DNA from: Acidobacteria bacterium Mor1 | Lineage (GTDB): Bacteria; Acidobacteriota; Polarisedimenticolia; Polarisedimenticolales; Polarisedimenticolaceae | Assembly (NCBI GenBank): GCA_001664505.1 | Contig: CP011806.1 | Coordinates: forward strand, 4,938,551 to 5,002,550 | Length of the DNA: 64,000 nt | Direction: 5' to 3' | In this document: piece by piece, positions 3,661 to 42,982 of the stretch | How the letters are laid out: every line of letters begins with the position of its first letter | Numbering within the stretch: the stretch's first letter is position 1 | Translations under genes and position numbers: made by a program | Notes under the pieces: generated by a model | The model's input: the letters and a program-made list of their open reading frames with translations, nothing else | The model's database searches: none | Told to the model about the DNA's origin: nothing

Positions 3661-5118
3661 TCAGTTCGATTCGAGACAGTCCCGTTCTGCGGGCCGTTCG
3701 ACGGGCCGGCTGTCGAAGCCGAGGCTGCCCTCGACAACGCCCACCGCGGTGACCAGGTAGAAGAAACCGTCACCGGGCAGCGGCTCATCCGCGTCGCTCA
3801 GACCCAGGGGAATGCCGCAGAAGAAACGTGCGCCGGGAACCGTCTGGGGATCCTGGGTGTAGGTGCCTGTCTGAAGCAGCGTCTCGAGGTCCCCCCGGTA
3901 GACGTTGTAGGTGATGCCTTCTCCCGCGGCCGGATCCCAGCTGAGCGTGTCTCCGTCGAGGCCTAGCCGTGTGATGCCGGTGCTCTCCCGGGCGCCGATA
4001 TCGGCGCGGGCCGTTCCGTCGAGGTCTCCGTCGAGGCTCCGGGGAAATCCGGCTACGTCGAGGAGGACCCCGGGGCCTGGATTGGCGACGTCGGACTCGA
4101 TCAACGGCGAGGAGCTACGCGGGGCAAAAGTCGTCTCGTCATCGAACAGCGGGTCGACCTCCGAGACCCCGTCGCCGGGCAGCGCCGAGCCGCCGGGGGA
4201 GTTGGCGAAGGAGACGTTGCCGGCGTAAGTCAGGTTGTTGTTGGTCGGCGTCCAGAAATCCGCCTCGTAGCTGAACGACGAGTTGCGGAAGAACACGTTG
4301 TTGGCCAGGGTGCCGCCTCCGTCGAACACACCCATGCCGCCGCCGTAGTCGCCGAAGTTGTCGATGAAGCTGTTGTGGACGATCTCAGCGTCTCCGAAGG
4401 TCAGATAGATCCCGCCGCCGAAGACTCCGCTATTGTCGAGAATCAAGTTGGTGGTGATCGTGGCGCCGCGGGACTGGACCAAGTAGATCCCGCCGCCGCT
4501 GTTGGCGTGGTTGTCGCGGATGATGTTGGCCGAGATCGTCGGAGCCGGATCGGGGTCACCAACGACGCCTGACACGTAGATGCCGCCGCCGTAGATGAAA
4601 GACGGGTTCGGCTGGGGGATCCCGTTGTCGCGGATGATGTTGCGGGTAATGACCGGGCTGCCGCCCAGCACCGCAATCCCTCCTCCTCCGCCATTGCTTT
4701 TCCGGCCGTTCTGCAGGGTCAGATTCGATAGCTCCGTATCGGAGCCGACTCGCGTCAGGGTCACCACCGTGTCGAGCTGACCCCCGTCGACGATGGCGCA
4801 GTTTCGATCCACGCCTCGCACGGACACGCCGCTACGCATGACGAGGTTCTCCTGGTAGAGGCCGCACTGGACCAGCACGTCATCCTGCCCGGGAACGGCA
4901 GCGTCGATCGCCGCCTGGATGTCCGTGAAGTCGGCGTCTCCCTCCGGGGAAACGGTGAGGGTTGCCGCGAGGGCAGCGGCGCCGCCGAGCAGCAATAGAC
5001 TGCCGATCGCTGAGGTTCTTGCGATCGACCTGGTCTTGCCCAAGGCTCGCCTGGGACCCGCGGCTCCGAGTTCGGCCTTCGCCGCGCATCGACCGGCGTC
5101 CCTGAGGGTTGAGAGCAT
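3661..5118 (-). CDS. Secreted right-handed parallel beta-helix protein
   Basis: About 485 residues. The start at 5118 is favoured by GAGG at proper spacing; the frame is open further upstream without an RBS. A signal anchor is followed by a segment typical of pectin-lyase-like helices (near FTDIQAAIDAA). Then come many short coils with GGGI, N-I-I-R-D-N and GGGMG motifs, the hallmark of NosD/Pel-type beta-helix proteins. The last ~100 residues form an FN3-like module (LSWDPA..., YNVYRG..., FFYLVTAVG) ending close to a Cys, like the module in the protein at 280-2226. No catalytic residues are evident; it may bind or cleave polysaccharide, or be a surface protein. Confidence 0.8.
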   Translation of the reverse strand: MLSTLRDAGRCAAKAELGAAGPRRALGKTRSIARTSAIGSLLLLGGAAALAATLTVSPEGDADFTDIQAAIDAAVPGQDDVLVQCGLYQENLVMRSGVSVRGVDRNCAIVDGGQLDTVVTLTRVGSDTELSNLTLQNGRKSNGGGGGIAVLGGSPVITRNIIRDNGIPQPNPSFIYGGGIYVSGVVGDPDPAPTISANIIRDNHANSGGGIYLVQSRGATITTNLILDNSGVFGGGIYLTFGDAEIVHNSFIDNFGDYGGGMGVFDGGGTLANNVFFRNSSFSYEADFWTPTNNNLTYAGNVSFANSPGGSALPGDGVSEVDPLFDDETTFAPRSSSPLIESDVANPGPGVLLDVAGFPRSLDGDLDGTARADIGARESTGITRLGLDGDTLSWDPAAGEGITYNVYRGDLETLLQTGTYTQDPQTVPGARFFCGIPLGLSDADEPLPGDGFFYLVTAVGVVEGSLGFDSRPVERPAERDCLESN

Positions 5119-5291
5119 ACGAACCTCGTCGCCGGGGGGAAGCGTTGCGACGAGTCTCCCGTGGGGGGCGGCCGGGGTCAACTGAAAACTGTCGGGCTCG
5201 CCCGAGCCCCGCCTTCCGGAGAGGGTTACTTATCGAGAAAAATGAAGGCATGTGTCGATTTCGAGCAGGGAGCCCGTCTACCTCATGAGCG

Positions 5292-5309
5292 GAGGCGGTT
5301 CCTCCGAGA
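5292..5309 (+). other. Small hairpin before the 5322 start codon
   Basis: CGGAGG and CCTCCG form a 6-bp stem around CGGTT, about 10 bases ahead of the functional GGAGA ribosome-binding site. The stem contains a decoy GGAGG. Its effect is unknown. Confidence 0.3.
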
Positions 5310-5321
5310 AACGGAGACGAA

Positions 5322-5831
5322 ATGAAGCAGGTACTCGGAATTGCGACTCTCTTGACGCTGGTGGTGCTGCCGTCCCTTGCCTTCCAGCCGGTAGCGGTGG
5401 CCGCCGAGCTTCCCTCGGGCCAAGAGGTCACTATCGAGGACTTCGCCTGGCTGGCCGGCGCCTGGATCGGCGAGGGCTTCGGCGGCACGCTGGAAGAGGT
5501 CTGGACCCCGCCGCGAGCGGGAATGATGATGGGCTCCTTCCGCCACATCATGGACGGCAAGGTACAGTTCATGGAGATCGTGACCCTCTCGGAGTACGAC
5601 GGTGAGATCCAGATGCGGGTCAAGCACTTCAACTCGGATCTGGTGGCCTGGGAAGAAAAGGCGGACTTCGTCACCTTCCGGCTCGAGTCCCTGACCGAGG
5701 AGCGGGCCAAGTTCGACGGCCTGACGATTCATCGCCGCGACGCGAACAAGATCCAGATCGACGTGAACATTCGCAGCGGCGACACGGTCAACACGGCGGA
5801 GCTGTTCTTCCAGCGCTACAAACTGCCATAG
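5322..5831 (+). CDS. DUF6265 family secreted protein
   Basis: A signal peptide (about residues 1-28) is followed by a compact ~140-residue domain. It has the pattern W(L)AGAWIGE...EEVWTPPRAG.MMG..R, a central FMEIVTLSEY strand, and late F..L....E..A.F. This matches the DUF6265 family, a lipocalin-like beta-barrel of unknown function. The start has GGAGACGAA before the ATG. It is followed after 10 bases by the lipoprotein protease gene at 5842, so the two are probably co-transcribed. No enzymatic activity can be assigned. Confidence 0.75.
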   Translation: MKQVLGIATLLTLVVLPSLAFQPVAVAAELPSGQEVTIEDFAWLAGAWIGEGFGGTLEEVWTPPRAGMMMGSFRHIMDGKVQFMEIVTLSEYDGEIQMRVKHFNSDLVAWEEKADFVTFRLESLTEERAKFDGLTIHRRDANKIQIDVNIRSGDTVNTAELFFQRYKLP

Positions 5832-5841
5832 GGAGTGAGCG

Positions 5842-7191
5842 ATGGTGACAAGGTCACAGGTGGCGGGGCGGCCGGGGCCGAGGGTGCGTAGAACGCTCGT
5901 GCTGGTCGCTCTGCTGCTGCTGGCGGGTTGTTCCCGGCAGCCCGGGGACACGCCGGTGGTTTCCTCGGACGTGGGGCTCTTCTGGGAAGCCTACGATGCA
6001 GTGCGCAGTACGGAGGATCCGGATCAACGCCTGCGCATCATCCGCGAACGCTACATCGAGGCGGGCTCTCCCGGGCTCGACGGCATCGTGCGCGCCCGGG
6101 GGTACACCGCGCAGGAGTACTTGAAGGCGATCGATTCCTACCCGGCCTTCTGGGACGCTGTGCGCCCCCACACGACGGAGGTCGACCGGGTCGTGCCGGA
6201 CATCCTGGCGGGCATCGAAGAGCTGCGGGAGATCTACCCCGGGCTCACACCCGCCCGAATCTACTTCACGATCGGAGCCCTTCGGACCAACGGAACGATC
6301 CTTGACGGCAACCTGCTGATCGGCGCCGAGCTGGCGTTCTCGACGCCGGAGACTCCTGCGAAGGAGTTGGAGCAGGATCTCCCCCATCTCGCGTCTTTCT
6401 TTGCGACCAACCCCAAGCGGTTGGTCGGATCGTTGGTCCTTCACGAATACGTACACACGCAGCAGGGTGGGTCCGGCGGCTACGACCTGCTGTCCCAGGC
6501 GCTCTACGAAGGGGTCGCCGAGTACGTCGCGACGGCGGGGCTCGGTCGAGAGAGCGGGGTCGAGGCCATTGCGTTCGGCAAGGCTCACGACGCCGAGCTC
6601 AAGGCGCATTTCGCCGGCGAGATGTTCCTGCCCTGGTACGACGGTTGGATCTGGAATTCTCCCGACAACCGCTACGGCGTGCGCGATCTCGGCTACTACA
6701 TGGGCTACGCCGTTGCCGAGGCCTATGTGGCCGGTGCCGCGGAGCCGCGGTCTGCGATCGAACGCCTCATCCAGTTGGACTACGGAGACCCCGAGGAGGT
6801 CGAGGCCGTCGTCGAGCAGTCCGGCTACTTCGACCGGCCGCTGGCCGAGCTACGGGCCGAGTACGACAAGACTCGTCCGCGAATACTGGGGAGGGCCATC
6901 GTCAAGAGTCGAAACGCGACCGAGGCCGACCCCTGGACTTTCGATCTGACGGTCCGTTTCACCGAGGAGATGGACACTCGCTACGCATCCGCACATCCGG
7001 GCCCGTTGGGTCGAGATCACTTCCCCGAGGTTCGCGGGGTGAGTTGGTCGGAAGACCGGCGTTCGGTGACCTACGAGATCCGGCTCGAGCGGGGTCTTTC
7101 CTATCAGATGGACATCCGGTCCGGCTATCGCAGCGCCCGCGGCTATCCGCCGGTGGGGCGCCTGCTCGATTTTGGCCCGGTCATTCCCTGA
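5842..7191 (+). CDS. Lipoprotein zinc metallopeptidase, DUF2268-like
   Basis: The 449-residue product has a type II signal peptide (LLLLAGC, lipid Cys at residue 30), so it is likely anchored in a membrane facing the periplasm. HEYVH at residues 201-205 followed by E227 in EGVAEYVA gives the HExxH...E arrangement of gluzincin-like peptidases. The surrounding sequence, including a preceding YFTIGALRTNGT segment and YYMGYA downstream, resembles DUF2268-type putative Zn proteases. The last ~100 residues look like a separate beta domain. An RBS (GGAGTGAGCG) precedes the ATG. Substrate unknown; the catalytic claim rests on motif only. Confidence 0.75.
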   Translation: MVTRSQVAGRPGPRVRRTLVLVALLLLAGCSRQPGDTPVVSSDVGLFWEAYDAVRSTEDPDQRLRIIRERYIEAGSPGLDGIVRARGYTAQEYLKAIDSYPAFWDAVRPHTTEVDRVVPDILAGIEELREIYPGLTPARIYFTIGALRTNGTILDGNLLIGAELAFSTPETPAKELEQDLPHLASFFATNPKRLVGSLVLHEYVHTQQGGSGGYDLLSQALYEGVAEYVATAGLGRESGVEAIAFGKAHDAELKAHFAGEMFLPWYDGWIWNSPDNRYGVRDLGYYMGYAVAEAYVAGAAEPRSAIERLIQLDYGDPEEVEAVVEQSGYFDRPLAELRAEYDKTRPRILGRAIVKSRNATEADPWTFDLTVRFTEEMDTRYASAHPGPLGRDHFPEVRGVSWSEDRRSVTYEIRLERGLSYQMDIRSGYRSARGYPPVGRLLDFGPVIP

Positions 7192-36330: not shown

Positions 36331-36735
36331 ATGAGTGAGCACATCAACATCGGGGCGGTCCTCGCCGCAGCGGCGGCCAACTTCCTGATCGGCGGCCTGT
36401 GGTATTCGCCGGCGCTCTTCGGCAAGGCCTGGATGCGGGCCAACGGCTTCAGCGAGGCGGATCTGCAGAAGGGTTCCCCGGCGGTGATCTTCGGCGTGTC
36501 CGCGCTTTTCTGTTTGATCATGGCGGCGAATCTGGCGGCCTTCCTCGCCGCTCCGGAGACCACCTTCGCCTTCGCCGTGGCCGCCGGCGTGGCCGCCGGA
36601 CTCGGCTGGGCAGCCATGGGGCTCGGCGTCGTGGCGCTGTTCGAGCGCCGCCCCTGTAGCTATCTCCTGGTCAACGGCGGCTACCTGACCGTCTCGTTCG
36701 CGGCGATGGGGGCGATCCTCGGTGCCTGGCGCTAG
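36331..36735 (+). CDS. DUF1761 family membrane protein
   Basis: 134 residues with four predicted transmembrane helices. It opens with INIGAVLAAAAANFLIGGLWYSPALFGKAWM, the diagnostic WYSP..FG..W segment of DUF1761, and closes with YLTVSFAAMGAILGAWR. An excellent RBS (CGGAGGAATC) precedes the ATG. Function unknown. Its stop codon overlaps the stop of the convergent napB gene in a shared CTAG. Confidence 0.8.
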   Translation: MSEHINIGAVLAAAAANFLIGGLWYSPALFGKAWMRANGFSEADLQKGSPAVIFGVSALFCLIMAANLAAFLAAPETTFAFAVAAGVAAGLGWAAMGLGVVALFERRPCSYLLVNGGYLTVSFAAMGAILGAWR

Positions 36736-37328
36736 CGATCCCGGCGCGGCTCCCGGCGCTCGAACAACGAAGCGGTCCGGATCGAGACGTGGCACTGGAC
36801 GCAGCGCGCTCGTTCCGGGTGGGAGGTGCGGATCTCTTCGCGGGCGGCAGGGCCGCTGTGGCAGGCGACGCAGTTCTCGCGCATGAAGATCGAGTGCGGC
36901 GTCACCGGGGGAGCGATCGGGTTCTGGCGAGTGCCGCGGCGGAGGTTCTGACGCAGTCCGGAGAATCCGTTCGCGGCGAACAGCGAGTCGGTGTTGACGA
37001 ACACATGGCACTGCCGGCAGCGGCTGGTCGCGCTCATGCCGTCGGTTTGCTCATGGGGTGATGGCGGAGCGAAACCGGTACCTTCGATCTCCATTCCGTC
37101 CTTGTTGTGACAGCTGGTGCATTCGATGTTGAAGTCGGCGTGGCTGATGGTCGGCGGAGCTCCGTCGAAGGCACGGCGCTCCGCCCGGTCGCTCGCGGGT
37201 GTCTTCTCGACATCCGATCGGTTCTCTCCCTGGCCATGGGTCAGCATCGGACCGGCGATCGCGAGGATCGCCGCCACGGCGAGCAGCAGGCCCGCGTGGG
37301 TCAAACGCGTTCTAGTCGAGCGGCGCAT
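36732..37328 (-). CDS. napB: NapB-like periplasmic cytochrome c with four haem motifs
   Basis: 198 residues, one N-terminal signal or anchor helix (residues 10-28). Four CxxCH sites: C70-H74, C104-H108, C153-H157, C176-H180. The second half matches NapB (R.NPIAPPVTPHSIFMRENCVACHSG...SHPERARCVQCHV), which passes electrons to NapA. Classical NapB binds only two haems; the two extra N-terminal sites make this a four-haem variant. It could therefore take electrons straight from another multihaem protein. Its start overlaps the end of napA by 28 bases. Last gene of the Rieske/cytochrome b operon. Confidence 0.82.
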   Translation of the reverse strand: MRRSTRTRLTHAGLLLAVAAILAIAGPMLTHGQGENRSDVEKTPASDRAERRAFDGAPPTISHADFNIECTSCHNKDGMEIEGTGFAPPSPHEQTDGMSATSRCRQCHVFVNTDSLFAANGFSGLRQNLRRGTRQNPIAPPVTPHSIFMRENCVACHSGPAAREEIRTSHPERARCVQCHVSIRTASLFERREPRRDR

Positions 37329-39652
37329 TTCTTGTAATCCGGCTCCTTGCTGATGTTGTCCATCGCATCGAGCGTCAGGCGGTTGATCAGTTTGGATTCA
37401 TCGAAGAACGGCACGAACAGCATTCCGCGCGGGGGCTTGCCGCGGCCGTCGACCTCGGCGTCGAGTTCCAGGCTGCCTCGCCGGGTCACCAGCCGCACTC
37501 GATCTCCCTGTTTGATGCCGAGCTCCCGCGCGTCTGCGCGATTGACCTCGACGAACGCCTCGGGAATCGCCTGGTGGAGCTGCTTGACTCGCCGCGTCAT
37601 GGAGCCGGTGTGCCAGTGTTCGAGGACCCGCCCGGTCGTGAGCCAGAGCGGGTACTCGCCATCGGGTACTTCGGCCGGCGGGTGGTAGGGCCGCAGCCAG
37701 AAGGCCGCCTTCTCGCCGTAGGCCTTGGCCTTGTAGAAGTGGACCCCCTTCTTCTTCTTGACGTAGGGGTCATGCTCGGCGCTGTATCGGTAGGGGGTTT
37801 CCTTGCCGTCGACGACCGGCCAGAGTTGTCCGCGGGTCTCACGAAGCTGCTGGTAGCTCGCGAGGTCCTTGCCGGTGCCGAGGCCGAAACTGCGGTACTC
37901 CTCGAACATCGGCTCGTGCCAGTCATCCTCCGGCCAGGGGAACAGGTGCCCCATGCCCATGCGTTTGGCGACCTCGATGAACTGCCAGGCATCCTCCTTC
38001 GCTTCCCCCGGGGGGTCGACCTGTTTGTTCCATTGCTGGGTGCGGCGCTCGGTGTTGCCGAAGGCGCCTTCCCGTTCGATCCACGCCGCTGACGGCAGGA
38101 TCAGGTCGGCGGCTTCGGTCGTCGGCGTCGGGTAGATGTCGCTGACTACGATGAAGCGTCCGTCGCCGGGCTTGCGCTCGAAGCGGTGGAGGTTGGGCAT
38201 GCTGACCCAGGGGTTGGTGGTCTGGATCCACATGGCCTTGATGTCTCCGCGGCTCAGCGCACGGAACATGTCGACCGCGTGATAGCCCGGCTTGGCGGGA
38301 ATCGTGCCGGGCTCCAGCTTCCAGATCTCCTCCGCCTTCTTGCGATGGGCCTCCTTGGTGACCAGCATGTCGGCGGGCAGGCGGTTCGAGAGGGTGCCGA
38401 CCTCCCTCGCTGTGCCGCAGGCGCTGGGCTGCCCGGTCAGGCTGAAGGGATTGGCGCCGGGCCGGCTGATCTTGCCCGTGATCAGGTGCAGATCGTTGAT
38501 CAGGTTGTTCATCCAGGTGCCGCGGACGTGCTGGTTGACCCCCATGCACCAGAGGCTGACGGTGCCGCGGCTCTGGTCTCCATACATCTCGGCCAGGGCG
38601 TGAATCTGTTCGACGGGGACGCCGCTGATCTCGCTGACCTTCTGCGGGGTGTAGTCTCGCAGGAAGGTCTCCAGCTCTTCCAGTGAGCTGGCGCGTCCCT
38701 TGTCCTTGAAGGTGTAGCGCTCGGCCTGATCGCCGTAGCAGCCGTAGCCGATCTGCTCGAGATCCTCGATCCCGCGCTTGAAGACCACGTTCTCCTTGAC
38801 GAAGGCCCGGTCTACTTTTCCTTTCGAGACCAGCAGGTGCAGGATGCCGTTGGCCAGGGCCAGGTCGGTGCCCGGTTTGAACTCGACGTAGAGGTCGGCA
38901 TAGTCGCTGGTCGGTGTGCGCCGCGTGGCGATGTCGACGATGCGCACCCGCGGATTGCGGCGTTTGCTCTCGAGCATGCGGCTGAAGAGCACAGGGTGCA
39001 TCTCCGCCATGTTGTTGCCCCAGAGGACGAAGTCGTCGCCGGCCTCGAAGTCCTCGTAGCAACCCATCGGTTCGTCGCTCTTGAACTGGGTCACGAAACC
39101 CATCACGGCGCTGGCCATGCAAAGGCGCGCGTTGGGGTCGATGTTGTTGCTGCGCATTCCGCCCTTGATCCACTTGAGCGCCGCGTAGCCGTCGAAGATC
39201 GTCCACTGGCCGGAGCCGTAGATCGCTACCGAGTCGGGGCCGTGGGTGTCGAGTGCCCCCTGGAATTTCTCGGCGATGAGGTCGAGAGCCTCGTCCCATG
39301 AGATACGGCTGAATCCCTTGCCGTCGGGGTTCCGCTTCATCGGGTGTGTCAGACGGTCCTCGCCGTAGAGGATGCTGCCGACGTGGTAGCCCTTGACACA
39401 CAGCAGGCCGCGGTTGACCGGGTTGGCCTCATCGCCGCGGATCGCCCGCACCCGGTTGTCCTTGACGCCGACCTCGATGCCGCAGCCGACGCCGCAGAAG
39501 CGGCAGACCGCCTTGTCCCAGCGAAGGTCGCTGTCCGACAGGGTTGCCTCATCCGCCTCGAGACGGGCGGCCTCGCGGCGGTCATCACAGGAAAAGGCCG
39601 CGATGCCGGCGCCGGTAACCCCTACTACCTTGAGAAAGTTTCTTCGCTTCAT
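37301..39652 (-). CDS. napA: Periplasmic nitrate reductase catalytic subunit NapA
   Basis: 783 residues. A twin-arginine signal (RRNFLK at residues 3-8) marks folded export. The N-terminal [4Fe-4S] site is CRFCGVGC (C50, C53, C57) plus C85. C178 in DPNARLCMASAVMGF is the expected molybdenum ligand of Nap-type enzymes. MGVNQHVRGTWMNNLINDLHLITGKI, ACGTAREVGTLSNRLPADM and GRVLEHWHTGSMTRRV are typical of NapA bis-MGD binding. It reduces nitrate to nitrite in the periplasm. No napD chaperone, napC, napG or napH is nearby. The start is three bases after the octahaem-cytochrome stop. Confidence 0.92.
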   Translation of the reverse strand: MKRRNFLKVVGVTGAGIAAFSCDDRREAARLEADEATLSDSDLRWDKAVCRFCGVGCGIEVGVKDNRVRAIRGDEANPVNRGLLCVKGYHVGSILYGEDRLTHPMKRNPDGKGFSRISWDEALDLIAEKFQGALDTHGPDSVAIYGSGQWTIFDGYAALKWIKGGMRSNNIDPNARLCMASAVMGFVTQFKSDEPMGCYEDFEAGDDFVLWGNNMAEMHPVLFSRMLESKRRNPRVRIVDIATRRTPTSDYADLYVEFKPGTDLALANGILHLLVSKGKVDRAFVKENVVFKRGIEDLEQIGYGCYGDQAERYTFKDKGRASSLEELETFLRDYTPQKVSEISGVPVEQIHALAEMYGDQSRGTVSLWCMGVNQHVRGTWMNNLINDLHLITGKISRPGANPFSLTGQPSACGTAREVGTLSNRLPADMLVTKEAHRKKAEEIWKLEPGTIPAKPGYHAVDMFRALSRGDIKAMWIQTTNPWVSMPNLHRFERKPGDGRFIVVSDIYPTPTTEAADLILPSAAWIEREGAFGNTERRTQQWNKQVDPPGEAKEDAWQFIEVAKRMGMGHLFPWPEDDWHEPMFEEYRSFGLGTGKDLASYQQLRETRGQLWPVVDGKETPYRYSAEHDPYVKKKKGVHFYKAKAYGEKAAFWLRPYHPPAEVPDGEYPLWLTTGRVLEHWHTGSMTRRVKQLHQAIPEAFVEVNRADARELGIKQGDRVRLVTRRGSLELDAEVDGRGKPPRGMLFVPFFDESKLINRLTLDAMDNISKEPDYKKCAARLERV

Positions 39653-39655
39653 GGT

Positions 39656-41290
39656 CTAGCTCTCTCCGGCCTTGCCGTAGCGGGCTTCCATCTGTTTCCG
39701 GATGGTCTCGGTCTGGTCGGCGGCGCCTTCCTTGAACCACTTGTGTTCGGGCCGCGCCAGGATGTCGTCGATGACCCGGTCGACGGCCCGGCCGGCGTTG
39801 GCCGACGGCGCGTGAGCGGTCAGCTCGCGGGCTTGCGGAATCATCTCCATGTAGAAACGCTCGGCCACCTCGTACATGCCGTGCCAGTGGGTGTAGTCGG
39901 GGGCCATCATCGAGGCTCCGTGCCGCGCTCGCCGACCCTCGTGGTGCCACAGGTAGAACCACGTCCATTCGATCTCTTCATCGAACTGGGTGGGAGTGAT
40001 CAGGCCGTTGTCCCGCAGGGCCCCGATGATCTTCTTGCCCGGCTTGGCGAACTTCTCGTTGTAGAGCACGACAAGGTCGTCGTATTGGGTGTAGAAGCCG
40101 TTGATGTAGTCGGGGGTGTGGCAGTGGGAACAGACCTGCTTCATCCGGTCCCGCTTCTGTTCCGCGGTGTCGTGGATCGTCTCGCGGCGCACCTCCGGAT
40201 CCAGCGAGGTGACGATCTTGTGGTTGATGTCGGTGTCCATGACCAGGCTGACCGGTGGGCGGTTGGTCCAGGAGATCCGTTCGCCGGGATCATGGGTGAC
40301 CCTGCCGCCGTTACGCAGGTTGCCCGACATGTGGCAGGTCGCGCAGGTCGGCGCAGCGGAGTAGTCCTTGCCGAGGACCCACTCGTCGGCATCGAGGTTC
40401 ATGTCCGCTCTCAGGTCGCGATACGCCGCGCCGTGTTTCGACTCCTCGAAGATCTCCTTCTGCGGGTGGTCCGGCCCCAGGTGGCACTTGCCGCAGTTTT
40501 CGGGCTGCCGTGCACGGCGGGGCGAGAAGTCGTGGCGGCTGTGACAGGCGGAGCAGGAGCCGCGGGACCCGTCCAGGTTGAGCCGGCCAATCCCGGTGTT
40601 CGGCCAGGTGCCCGGATGCATCAGCGGGCGGCCCTTGTCGTCCCGAAGGATCCGGGCGACCGCGTCGAGATTGGTCGGGATTCCGTTCTCATCGGGAACC
40701 AGGGCGTCCACATCGATCATGCCGCCGTCGGTCGCCTGCAGCGCGACCTTGGAGCCGTGGCACTGCTGGCACCCGGTAAAGGCGCTCGCCAGGCCGTTGA
40801 CCAGATCGATCTGCTTGCCCGGAGTCGGACCGTGGGGGTTGAACGGAGTCCGTGACCCTTCCACGGTTTCGGCCAGGAAGTTGTCCAGGGAGGCGAGGAT
40901 GTTGCCCCCGGCCGCGTGGTGGCTCTGAGCGAACTCCTCGGCTTCCATCGGGTGGCAGCGGCTGCAATCCCGCGGCGTCACGACGGTGGCGATATGTTCG
41001 CCGTAGTGGGTGTAACCGTCGGGATCGTCCGGGCCGGCCTGGTGGCACTCCACGCAGGCGACCCCTTTTTCCGCGTGGCTGCTGCCCTCCCAGTGCCCGA
41101 CGATGCCCGGGTTGGACTTTCGGTGGCAATCGACGCAGTCCCGGCTGTTGGCGGGAACGTCGATGTGAGGACTGCCCAGGCCCGCCTCGGTGCGCCGGCG
41201 CGCTGTCTCGAGCCCTTGGACGAAGAGCAGTGAGACAATGAACAGTGCCGCAAGTGCGGCGATGACGATTTGCTTCTGTTTCAGTGTCAC
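39656..41290 (-). CDS. hao: Octahaem cytochrome c of the hydroxylamine oxidoreductase family
   Basis: About 544 residues. The GTG at 41290 has GAGGTG just upstream; another GTG lies two codons earlier. A single membrane anchor (about 8-26) is followed by eight CxxCH sites: C52, C79, C109, C174, C246, C266, C316 and C387. GSCSACHSRHDFS, NCGKCHLGPDHPQKEIFEESKHG and FDEEIEWTWFYLWHHEGRRAR are hallmark HAO-family segments. Family members oxidise hydroxylamine or hydrazine, or reduce nitrite and hydroxylamine to ammonium. Direction depends partly on a haem-crosslinking Tyr; Y466 in APDYTHWHG is the candidate, but I cannot align it. It sits between cytochrome b and napA in one operon. Confidence 0.88.
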   Translation of the reverse strand: MTLKQKQIVIAALAALFIVSLLFVQGLETARRRTEAGLGSPHIDVPANSRDCVDCHRKSNPGIVGHWEGSSHAEKGVACVECHQAGPDDPDGYTHYGEHIATVVTPRDCSRCHPMEAEEFAQSHHAAGGNILASLDNFLAETVEGSRTPFNPHGPTPGKQIDLVNGLASAFTGCQQCHGSKVALQATDGGMIDVDALVPDENGIPTNLDAVARILRDDKGRPLMHPGTWPNTGIGRLNLDGSRGSCSACHSRHDFSPRRARQPENCGKCHLGPDHPQKEIFEESKHGAAYRDLRADMNLDADEWVLGKDYSAAPTCATCHMSGNLRNGGRVTHDPGERISWTNRPPVSLVMDTDINHKIVTSLDPEVRRETIHDTAEQKRDRMKQVCSHCHTPDYINGFYTQYDDLVVLYNEKFAKPGKKIIGALRDNGLITPTQFDEEIEWTWFYLWHHEGRRARHGASMMAPDYTHWHGMYEVAERFYMEMIPQARELTAHAPSANAGRAVDRVIDDILARPEHKWFKEGAADQTETIRKQMEARYGKAGES

Positions 41291-41321
41291 AAACACCTCG
41301 TGCCCGGGGATATCGCCCGAC

Positions 41322-42371
41322 TCAATGCTTGACCACGGCTTCCCAGACGGTCAGCCCGATGATCAGCAGGACGCCGATGATCCCGATCCAGACGCTGGCT
41401 TCCTTGAACTTCGTTTTCTTGCGAATGAAGCTGTCCACGAAGGGCCACATGAACATGGTGAACACGATGAACCCCATGCTGAGGACGGCGGTGGTGCCGC
41501 TGAACAACTTCAGCCAACGGAACGTGACGTAGAAGAACCACTCCGGCTTGATCACCTCCGGTGTGGTCAGGGGATCCGCCGGGGGGCCCATGTGCGCCGG
41601 GGCGATGGTGGCCAACGCGCTGAGCAGGATCATCAGCAGCAGGCCGATGCCGACCTCGGTGTAGAGATGGTCCGGGAAGAAGTTGAACGTCTTGGGCGCA
41701 TCCGCGGGTTCGTCCTCGAAGCGCAGCTCGGTGACCCCCTGGACGCGGATCAGGGCGATGTGCACGATGATCAGCGCGACCATCAGGACCGGAAGAACCG
41801 CCGCGTGGAGAATGAAAAAGCGCGACAAGGTGTGTTCGTTGTAGGTCGCACCCCCCAGTAACATGTTCTTGAGGAACCCACCGACCAGCGGCACCATCTC
41901 GGTGAGATTCGCCCCGACCGTCGCGCCCCAGTAGCTGAGCTGTTCGAACACCAGGCTGTAGCCGGTAAAGCCGAGCCCGAGGGTGCAGAGCAGCAGGCAC
42001 ATGCCGACCATCCAGTTCGGCTCGCGGGGCTTGCGGTAGGCGCCGGTGAAGTACACCCGCATCTGGTGCAAGATCACGGCGGCGACCATCAGAGTGGCCG
42101 CCCACTTGTGGATCCCGCGGATGTACCAGCCGAAGGCCGCCTCTTCGGTGATGTAGCGCACCGACTCGTAGGCGGTGGTCGGTGCCGGTTCGTAGTAGAA
42201 GGCGAGCAGGATCCCGGTGAAGATCTGCACGACGAACAGGTAGGCGGGGGTGCCGCCCAGGGCGTACCACCAACGCTTGAGGTGGTTGGGAACCGGTTCG
42301 TTGGTCAGTTCGCGCAGGCTATCGCCGGAGATCGGCAGGCGCTCCTGGATCCATGCGGTCACTCGGCTCAC
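41322..42371 (-). CDS. Cytochrome b (b6-type with fused subunit IV) of a Rieske/b complex
   Basis: 349 residues with about eight transmembrane helices. Haem b ligands H88/H102 and H189/H204 are present; the 15-residue step of the second pair is the b6-type spacing. The quinol-site motif appears as PEWFF (276-280), a variant of PEWY. The C-terminal part corresponds to subunit IV, so both halves of the b6f-type pair are fused. It oxidises quinol and moves electrons to the Rieske protein. It starts two bases after the Rieske stop. No cytochrome c1 or f gene follows; the octahaem cytochrome takes that position. Confidence 0.93.
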   Translation of the reverse strand: MSRVTAWIQERLPISGDSLRELTNEPVPNHLKRWWYALGGTPAYLFVVQIFTGILLAFYYEPAPTTAYESVRYITEEAAFGWYIRGIHKWAATLMVAAVILHQMRVYFTGAYRKPREPNWMVGMCLLLCTLGLGFTGYSLVFEQLSYWGATVGANLTEMVPLVGGFLKNMLLGGATYNEHTLSRFFILHAAVLPVLMVALIIVHIALIRVQGVTELRFEDEPADAPKTFNFFPDHLYTEVGIGLLLMILLSALATIAPAHMGPPADPLTTPEVIKPEWFFYVTFRWLKLFSGTTAVLSMGFIVFTMFMWPFVDSFIRKKTKFKEASVWIGIIGVLLIIGLTVWEAVVKH

Positions 42372-42373
42372 GG

Positions 42374-42982
42374 TCAGGCTCGCTCGCCGTCACGAACAGG
42401 GTTCGGCGCCTTGGCGAGACAGGGGTCGTGCCCTGCTGCGTGGATGCCCTCGACCCGGTCGATGACCCGTCCCTTTCCGCGGGCCATGGCGTCACCTGCG
42501 GGGAGCTCGATGAACAGCAGCGCTCCTTCCAGCTTGAGTTGATACCTCGGCAGCGATTGACCGGAGTCTCCCGGCGGCCCTCCGACCCCTTTGCCGCTCG
42601 CATCGAAGATTCCGTTGTGGCAGGGGCAGAAGAAGCGGCTCTTGTCACCTTCCCAGAACACCTGGCAGCCGAGGTGCGGGCAGGTGCTGGAAAGTGCGAT
42701 GAAGTCGTCGACCTCTCCGCTTTCCCGTTGTCGCGCGATGTTGATCGTCTCGCCGGAGGGGCCCTGAAAGATCACTGAATCGCCGGCCTTGAAGCGGTCG
42801 ATCTCGGCGACGAAGGTCCAGCGGGTGTCGCGGGGTTTGGCGGGGTATAGAAAGCGGGCCGCGATCGCAGCGAACCCGCCGTAGGCCCCGGCAAGTCCGA
42901 GCAGCATCGTCAGGCGCGAGCTGAGGTCGAGGAAGCCTCGGCGTTCCTGGCCTGCAGCCGGTTTGGGTTCCTGTTCGCTCAT
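42374..42982 (-). CDS. Rieske [2Fe-2S] iron-sulfur protein
   Basis: About 202 residues. A cytoplasmic N-terminus and one membrane helix (about 24-45, LTMLLGLAGAYGGFAAIAARFL) precede the Rieske fold. Cluster ligands: C101 and H103 in CPHLGC, C119 and H122 in CPCH, with C106/C121 for the disulphide. GPPGDSGQSLPRYQL is the proline loop. GAGG lies close before the ATG at 42982. It is the first gene of the five-gene operon (Rieske - cytochrome b - octahaem cytochrome - napA - napB) and delivers electrons from quinol to the periplasmic partners. The C-terminal ~45 residues are an extra tail. Confidence 0.93.
   Translation of the reverse strand: MSEQEPKPAAGQERRGFLDLSSRLTMLLGLAGAYGGFAAIAARFLYPAKPRDTRWTFVAEIDRFKAGDSVIFQGPSGETINIARQRESGEVDDFIALSSTCPHLGCQVFWEGDKSRFFCPCHNGIFDASGKGVGGPPGDSGQSLPRYQLKLEGALLFIELPAGDAMARGKGRVIDRVEGIHAAGHDPCLAKAPNPVRDGERA

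Follow-up and report, generated by a model that had tools for sequence, protein, structure and literature searches.

A five-gene operon was identified within the window, the stretch of 64,000 nucleotides analysed here, and on balance we favour reading it as an electrogenic quinol:nitrate oxidoreductase chain. Its Rieske and cytochrome b proteins very probably form one complex with an octahaem cytochrome of the HAO family (OCC). This Rieske/b-OCC unit is likely to feed the nitrate reductase NapAB through a tetrahaem double NapB.

Gene content of the operon

We found that the operon comprises the following genes, listed in the direction of transcription.

42374..42982, minus strand: Rieske [2Fe-2S] protein, 202 aa, ATG start; PF00355 37.7 bits (cut-off 20.3)
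41322..42371, minus strand: b6-type cytochrome b, 349 aa, GTG start; PF00033 178.9 bits (cut-off 27.2), PF00032 36.8 bits
39656..41290, minus strand: OCC, octahaem HAO-family cytochrome, 544 aa, GTG start; eight CXXCH motifs; Multi-haem_cyto 81.6 (cut-off 21.9)
37301..39652, minus strand: napA, catalytic subunit of periplasmic nitrate reductase, 783 aa; TIGR01706 947 (cut-off 930.55)
36732..37328, minus strand: tetrahaem double NapB, 198 aa; four CXXCH motifs; two tandem NapB di-haem domains

The genes are spaced by 2, 31 and 3 bases, followed by an overlap of 28 bases, and all open reading frames are intact. Open reading frames and family searches confirmed the five minus-strand genes and the spacing given in the original prediction, and its claim of a single transcript is supported by the overlaps and the conserved gene order, which suggest cotranscription. 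The start of OCC was placed at the GTG at 41290 and not at the GTG at 41296 chosen by the ORF lister, because homologues begin with MTLxxKR. Plus-strand genes for a DUF1761 protein and an AraC-type regulator flank the operon at its 3' side, and an open reading frame without a Pfam match lies at the opposite side.

The Rieske protein carries the cluster boxes CPHLGC and CPCHNG, as detected by a motif scan. Cytochrome b consists of the N-terminal domain and a short C-terminal domain, with the Qo motif PEWF and the haem ligands H88/H102 and H189/H204, which are separated by 13 and 14 residues as in b6. The cluster boxes together with the four haem-b histidines identify the pair as a Rieske/cytochrome b complex. 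It is not a bc1 or b6f complex proper, since the operon has OCC where a gene for cytochrome c1 or f would stand. Family searches of the neighbourhood detected none of c1/f, napC, napD, napG/H or nrfH beside the operon, as had been claimed. The identity of NapA was also supported by PRK13532 (976, above the cut-off of 904), and the protein has a Tat-type signal, a 4Fe-4S motif at C50 and the Mo-ligand motif NARLCM. A Cys follows the Tat signal in about half of the NapA homologues, and lipoprotein anchoring is not claimed.

The last protein of the operon matches the Pfam NapB family weakly and below threshold (21.3, cut-off 25.1). It has four CXXCH motifs, and a further four His residues are invariant among 17 homologues; the two halves of the protein align with each other (hhalign probability 99.2, E 3e-19). 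The three best PDB matches of the family profile are the NapB structures 3ml1, 1ogy and 1jni, and 16 of the 17 family members match Pfam NapB at E <= 0.01. The tetrahaem state was common to all 21 NapB-like homologues found at OCC loci. By homology, the protein is therefore a tandem-duplicated NapB domain with four haem motifs, distinct from the dihaem, single-domain NapB. The earlier call of a NapB-like protein stands as to homology; it had given no haem count, which is four rather than two, and had not included the tandem duplication. A structure prediction of the double NapB was set aside (pLDDT 49).

Distribution and gene order among relatives

OCC relatives were drawn from three sets, comprising 60 near genomes, 199 genomes belonging to the phylum and the GTDB species covered by a scan. 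Cytochrome b was found directly upstream of OCC in 72 of 99 loci (window counted), with the Rieske gene also present in 69 of these; because the sample was chosen by similarity to the window's OCC, these and the following fractions describe near relatives and not all OCCs. The loci examined came from Acidobacteriota, Gemmatimonadota, Planctomycetota, Krumholzibacteriota, Myxococcota, Bacteroidota, Chlorobiota and Nitrospinaceae, among others. A search for the ordered set Rieske-cytb-HAO-NapA-NapB, as the original prediction had proposed, uncovered all five genes in 19 of the 99 loci, window included, spanning multiple phyla. Six more loci contained Rieske-cytb-OCC-NapA without a visible NapB, and four of these end at a contig edge. 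The Rieske-cytb-OCC order was kept down to approximately 30-50% protein identity in many phyla, and its recurrence across them suggested that the operon order is more than chance.

Among the 60 Rieske/b-OCC loci whose downstream sequence extends for 2.5 kb or more, NapA was present downstream in 22 and absent in 38. It was found at none of the 19 OCC loci lacking Rieske/b (Fisher p = 0.0009, relatedness uncorrected). On the OCC tree, at least 18 changes are needed to account for the presence of NapA, compared with at least 7 for Rieske/b. As judged from gene order, the stable unit is thus Rieske-cytb-OCC, to which NapAB is often but variably added. The distance matrix of OCC was correlated with that of cytochrome b (r = 0.86) and with that of NapA (0.86), both values being confounded by shared ancestry. 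NapA was detected at E <= 1e-150 in only 14 of 199 Acidobacteriota genomes. The closest full-length matches to the window's NapA (74-76%; G041, G138 and G212), as well as one at 57% (G218), adjoin OCC.

Several loci had further features. At one planctomycetotal locus (L128), genes for NapA and a double NapB come immediately after that for a soluble-looking OCC, and a contig end hides any Rieske/b. Two modules from Bacteroidota/Chlorobiota (L131, L141) carry a longer, diverged NapA-like protein of about 900 aa (38-39% identity), and a double NapB was not detected in them. Outer membrane porins of the Alginate_exp type recurrently adjoin OCC genes (L062:3996-5324, L137:9284-10591 and others; 15 loci, one cluster). 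Rrf2-family regulators and protoglobin-histidine kinases also recur near OCC loci (L110:5501-5944, L139:3619-4794), perhaps for NO or O2 sensing. In six loci (L077:12613-13200, L143 and L154 among them), the sequence downstream of the module encodes a small conserved protein of about 200 aa that matches no Pfam family.

OCC membrane anchor and probable quinol dehydrogenase partner

To characterize the OCCs, we scored their N-termini by regular expression, with three rows (L063, L124, L151) read by eye. An uncleaved hydrophobic helix, with the pattern MxLxxKRxxI...LFLxSLxxVQ, was found in all 70 scored OCCs that have Rieske/b upstream. It was absent from all 19 scored OCCs without Rieske/b, which have cleavable or lipoprotein-type export signals instead. 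In the predicted model of the window's OCC, the anchor is a single helix spanning residues 3-35. The anchor moves along with Rieske/b on the OCC tree. A sign test of anchor against Rieske/b gave a median p of 0.125 with typically no discordant pairing, and this test cannot reach significance because well-supported branches provide just five independent pairs. The tracking of Rieske/b by the anchor suggested that, in the Rieske/b complex, OCC fills the role of c subunit. It also supports the earlier claim that OCC would stand in place of cytochrome c1/f, as the anchor occurs exactly where Rieske/b is present.

In Gammaproteobacteria, a tetrahaem protein of the NapC/NirT family is encoded directly downstream of OCC (PF03264 172 bits). 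This suggested that Rieske/b takes the place of NapC, and the OCC family appears to draw electrons from either Rieske/b or a NapC-type quinol dehydrogenase.

Fold and active-site residues of OCC

The nearest solved structure to OCC is IhOCC of Ignicoccus hospitalis (4qo5, phmmer E 2.8e-42), followed in the structure search by HAO, hydroxylamine oxidase, hydrazine dehydrogenase and kustc0458. A predicted model built from 54 sequences (pLDDT 86) matches the folds of 4qo5, 6h5l and 1fgj. Against HAO 1fgj, the Foldseek E was 8.6e-7 and the VIA Z was 9.7 over 195 residues at 3.4 Å. For the comparison with 4qo5 the whole-model rmsd was 19 Å, and we relied on the C-terminal half, approximately 195 residues at 3.3-3.4 Å. 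MccA, ONR and NrfA, with Z of 3-5, were not used for classification. With eight c-type haems and the HAO fold, OCC belongs to the HAO family.

The original prediction had proposed an alignment to structures to judge the Tyr of the catalytic haem. We found that the residue aligned with the cross-linking Tyr467 of N. europaea HAO is Trp in all 54 OCCs, both by MAFFT and by a gapless scan. The gapless HAO-OCC alignment had its best offset at +2 in both windows tested, with the next best clearly worse; a permissive, low-stringency hhalign instead set a neighbouring Tyr at this position. A PDB search with the C-terminal HAO sequence used for this comparison matched 4fas at full identity and confirmed Tyr as residue 467. 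The equivalent residue is Phe in IhOCC and Trp in kustc0458. Asp274-His275, which align with HAO Asp267-His268, a pair that lies at the catalytic haem in HAO, and the haem-4 motif were invariant in all 54 OCCs. By these alignments, OCC thus lacks the cross-linking Tyr of P460-type HAO and groups with the reductive kustc0458/IhOCC type, which has the HAO fold without that Tyr. A reducing role is favoured because the Tyr467 position is Trp while the Asp-His pair is kept, and the residues point to a reductive enzyme. That OCC would be catalytically reductive, besides transferring electrons, we give an even or slightly better chance.

Respiratory partners elsewhere in the genome

The source genome, that of a member of the Acidobacteriota, is a single contig of 5.985 Mb. 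By family searches across it, the operon cytochrome b is the sole Cytochrome_B, NapD was not detected, and there was no NapH above cut-off. NapC was also not detected: the single NapC-family match is NrfH, which adjoins its own NrfA, a protein with five CXXCH motifs (L158, G000:C1:5594000-5608000, 4791-6983). The proposed search for a NapC/NrfH partner elsewhere therefore returned only this NrfH, and the absence of NapC, NapD and NapH supports the idea of a dedicated quinol dehydrogenase for Nap. Genes for alternative complex III (ACIII), followed by a haem-copper oxidase, are located elsewhere in the genome (L163, G000:C1:2888000-2902000). Since aerobic respiration has its own ACIII and oxidase, Rieske/b would be left free for nitrate. 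With one cytochrome b, no NapC, NapD or NapH, and a separate O2 chain, Rieske/b is most easily understood as the nitrate branch. The same genome also encodes a 657-aa fusion of a Rieske domain with a thiamine-diphosphate enzyme (L159:6355-8325, G000).

Proposed electron chain and alternatives

In the proposed chain, the Rieske/cytochrome b pair would oxidise (mena)quinol via a Q-cycle, and the Rieske cluster would pass one electron to the membrane-anchored OCC, the stand-in for cytochrome c1/f. OCC would hand electrons to the tetrahaem double NapB and on to NapA, which would reduce nitrate to nitrite in the periplasm. Having a seemingly reductive catalytic haem, OCC might also reduce nitrite or another N-oxide from the same electron supply. 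Complex formation, the electron path, the Q-cycle, the direction of flow and the substrates are what we infer from gene content, order and sequence. The route from Rieske/b through OCC to nitrate that was originally predicted remains the favoured one; nitrite reduction, its further step, need not fall to OCC because the genome has NrfHA.

The absence of NapA from 38 of 60 Rieske-cytb-OCC loci implies that OCC must have a further output or activity. OCC could be the terminal enzyme, making Rieske/b-OCC a quinol:nitrite (or NO or hydroxylamine) reductase with NapAB co-transcribed only to make nitrite, the two together forming an ammonification or NO-forming pathway. We regard this as a real contender that falls somewhat short of an even chance, and it is compatible with the quinol:nitrate chain, the two not being exclusive. 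Most Rieske-cytb-OCC loci lack NapA, IhOCC is the nearest structure, and Rrf2 regulators and protoglobin kinases lie near several loci. The invariant haem-4 motif and Asp274-His275, and the Trp shared with kustc0458, also agree with a terminal reductase; kustc0458 is, by the title of the paper cited for it, a nitrite-reducing octahaem protein without the cross-link. However, NrfHA is already available for nitrite to ammonium, and NapAB would still need a donor, with NapC and NapH absent. If OCC were instead a pure electron wire of Rieske/b without catalysis, its soluble partners (NapB4, other cytochromes) would vary by organism. The exact tracking of Rieske/b by the anchor, the 18 changes of NapAB and the presence of NrfHA are consistent with this, but a mere wire would not need the invariant Asp274, His275 and haem-4 motif, and we consider it doubtful. 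Equally doubtful is the most inclusive reading, in which the five proteins would form one membrane-bound, proton-translocating quinol:nitrate/nitrite complex with a catalytic octahaem reductase as the c-type subunit of Rieske/b, OCC would be both wire to NapAB and terminal nitrite/NO reductase, and the complex type would be common to many environmental phyla.

NrfH or ACIII, both encoded in the genome, could in principle feed Nap, the operon position of NapAB then being incidental. We find this hardly likely: NapA directly follows OCC in many phyla, NrfH adjoins its own NrfA, and NapA is missing at all 19 of the OCC loci examined that lack Rieske/b. The reverse direction, which the original prediction had kept as an option, would have OCC oxidise hydroxylamine or NO and deliver electrons through Rieske/b to quinone. 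OCC has the HAO fold, and the HAO-type enzymes of nitrifiers and anammox bacteria are oxidative. However, the cross-link Tyr is replaced by Trp in every OCC aligned and OCC is associated with a nitrate reductase, and this direction is not favoured, being very improbable. The quinol:nitrate chain remains our preferred reading.

Nitrate respiration by Nap fed by NapC is usually counted as not energy-conserving. If the preferred reading is true, Nap nitrate respiration would be electrogenic in many mostly uncultured bacteria. Genomes with 'hao', 'napAB' and a stray Rieske/b could then be misread as those of nitrifiers or incomplete denitrifiers. One octahaem family, anchored where it is coupled to Rieske/b and soluble where it is coupled to NapC, would form a natural series that makes the origin of the c subunit of bc-type complexes testable.

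Relation to known systems

The exact five-gene order and the tetrahaem double NapB were not described in the literature we searched, which for the gene order was the openly readable part. As far as that literature shows, the new elements are the five-gene order and its occurrence across multiple phyla, the correlation of the anchor with Rieske/b, the NapC swap and the double NapB. The earlier statement that no description was known holds for the exact order and not for the idea itself, which has a precedent in Caldithrix abyssi. According to the accessible part of its report, the nap cluster of that species (Cabys_2564-2556) has Rieske and cytochrome b genes adjoining an octahaem eHao and lacks napC, and its authors proposed a route from Rieske/b via a tetrahaem protein to Nap and/or eHao (PMC5317091). 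As in the source genome, ACIII is encoded elsewhere. In contrast, Caldithrix has NapM and NapGH but no NapB, whereas the window operon has the double NapB and no NapM, NapG or NapH; its napA precedes the Rieske, cytochrome b and eHao genes, whereas the window's follows OCC. Neither the anchor correlation nor the wide spread is described in that part of the report (PMC5317091). Surveys of Planctomycetota and Phycisphaerae, in the parts accessible, mention 'hao' or 'Onr', NapAB and R/b genes but do not connect these as components of a single system (PMC10732223, PMC11266412).

Kuste4569-4574 of Kuenenia stuttgartiensis is similar in having a b6-like Rieske/b, a multihaem c protein replacing cytochrome f and an HAO-like OCC (PMC12954380). 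However, in Kuenenia subunit IV is a separate protein, the complexes contain a further hexa/octahaem c protein as well as an NAD(P) oxidoreductase subunit, and their description does not count NapAB among the components. IhOCC (4qo5), the nearest solved structure in fold as well as in sequence, resembles the window's OCC as a membrane-associated octahaem protein whose Tyr467 position is not Tyr (Phe), but it is archaeal, has approximately 23-30% identity, and in the alignment has Asp-Val where the window's OCC has Asp-His. The Deferribacter napMADGH-hao cluster also joins NapA and an HAO-family protein, but contains no Rieske/b, and electron entry was proposed via NapGH (PMC6896113). In Campylobacter jejuni, which has no NapC, a QcrABC mutant showed that Rieske/b is the obligatory electrogenic donor to NapAB; that complex uses a dihaem c4-type cytochrome as its c subunit rather than OCC, and NapGH is present (PMC6195509).
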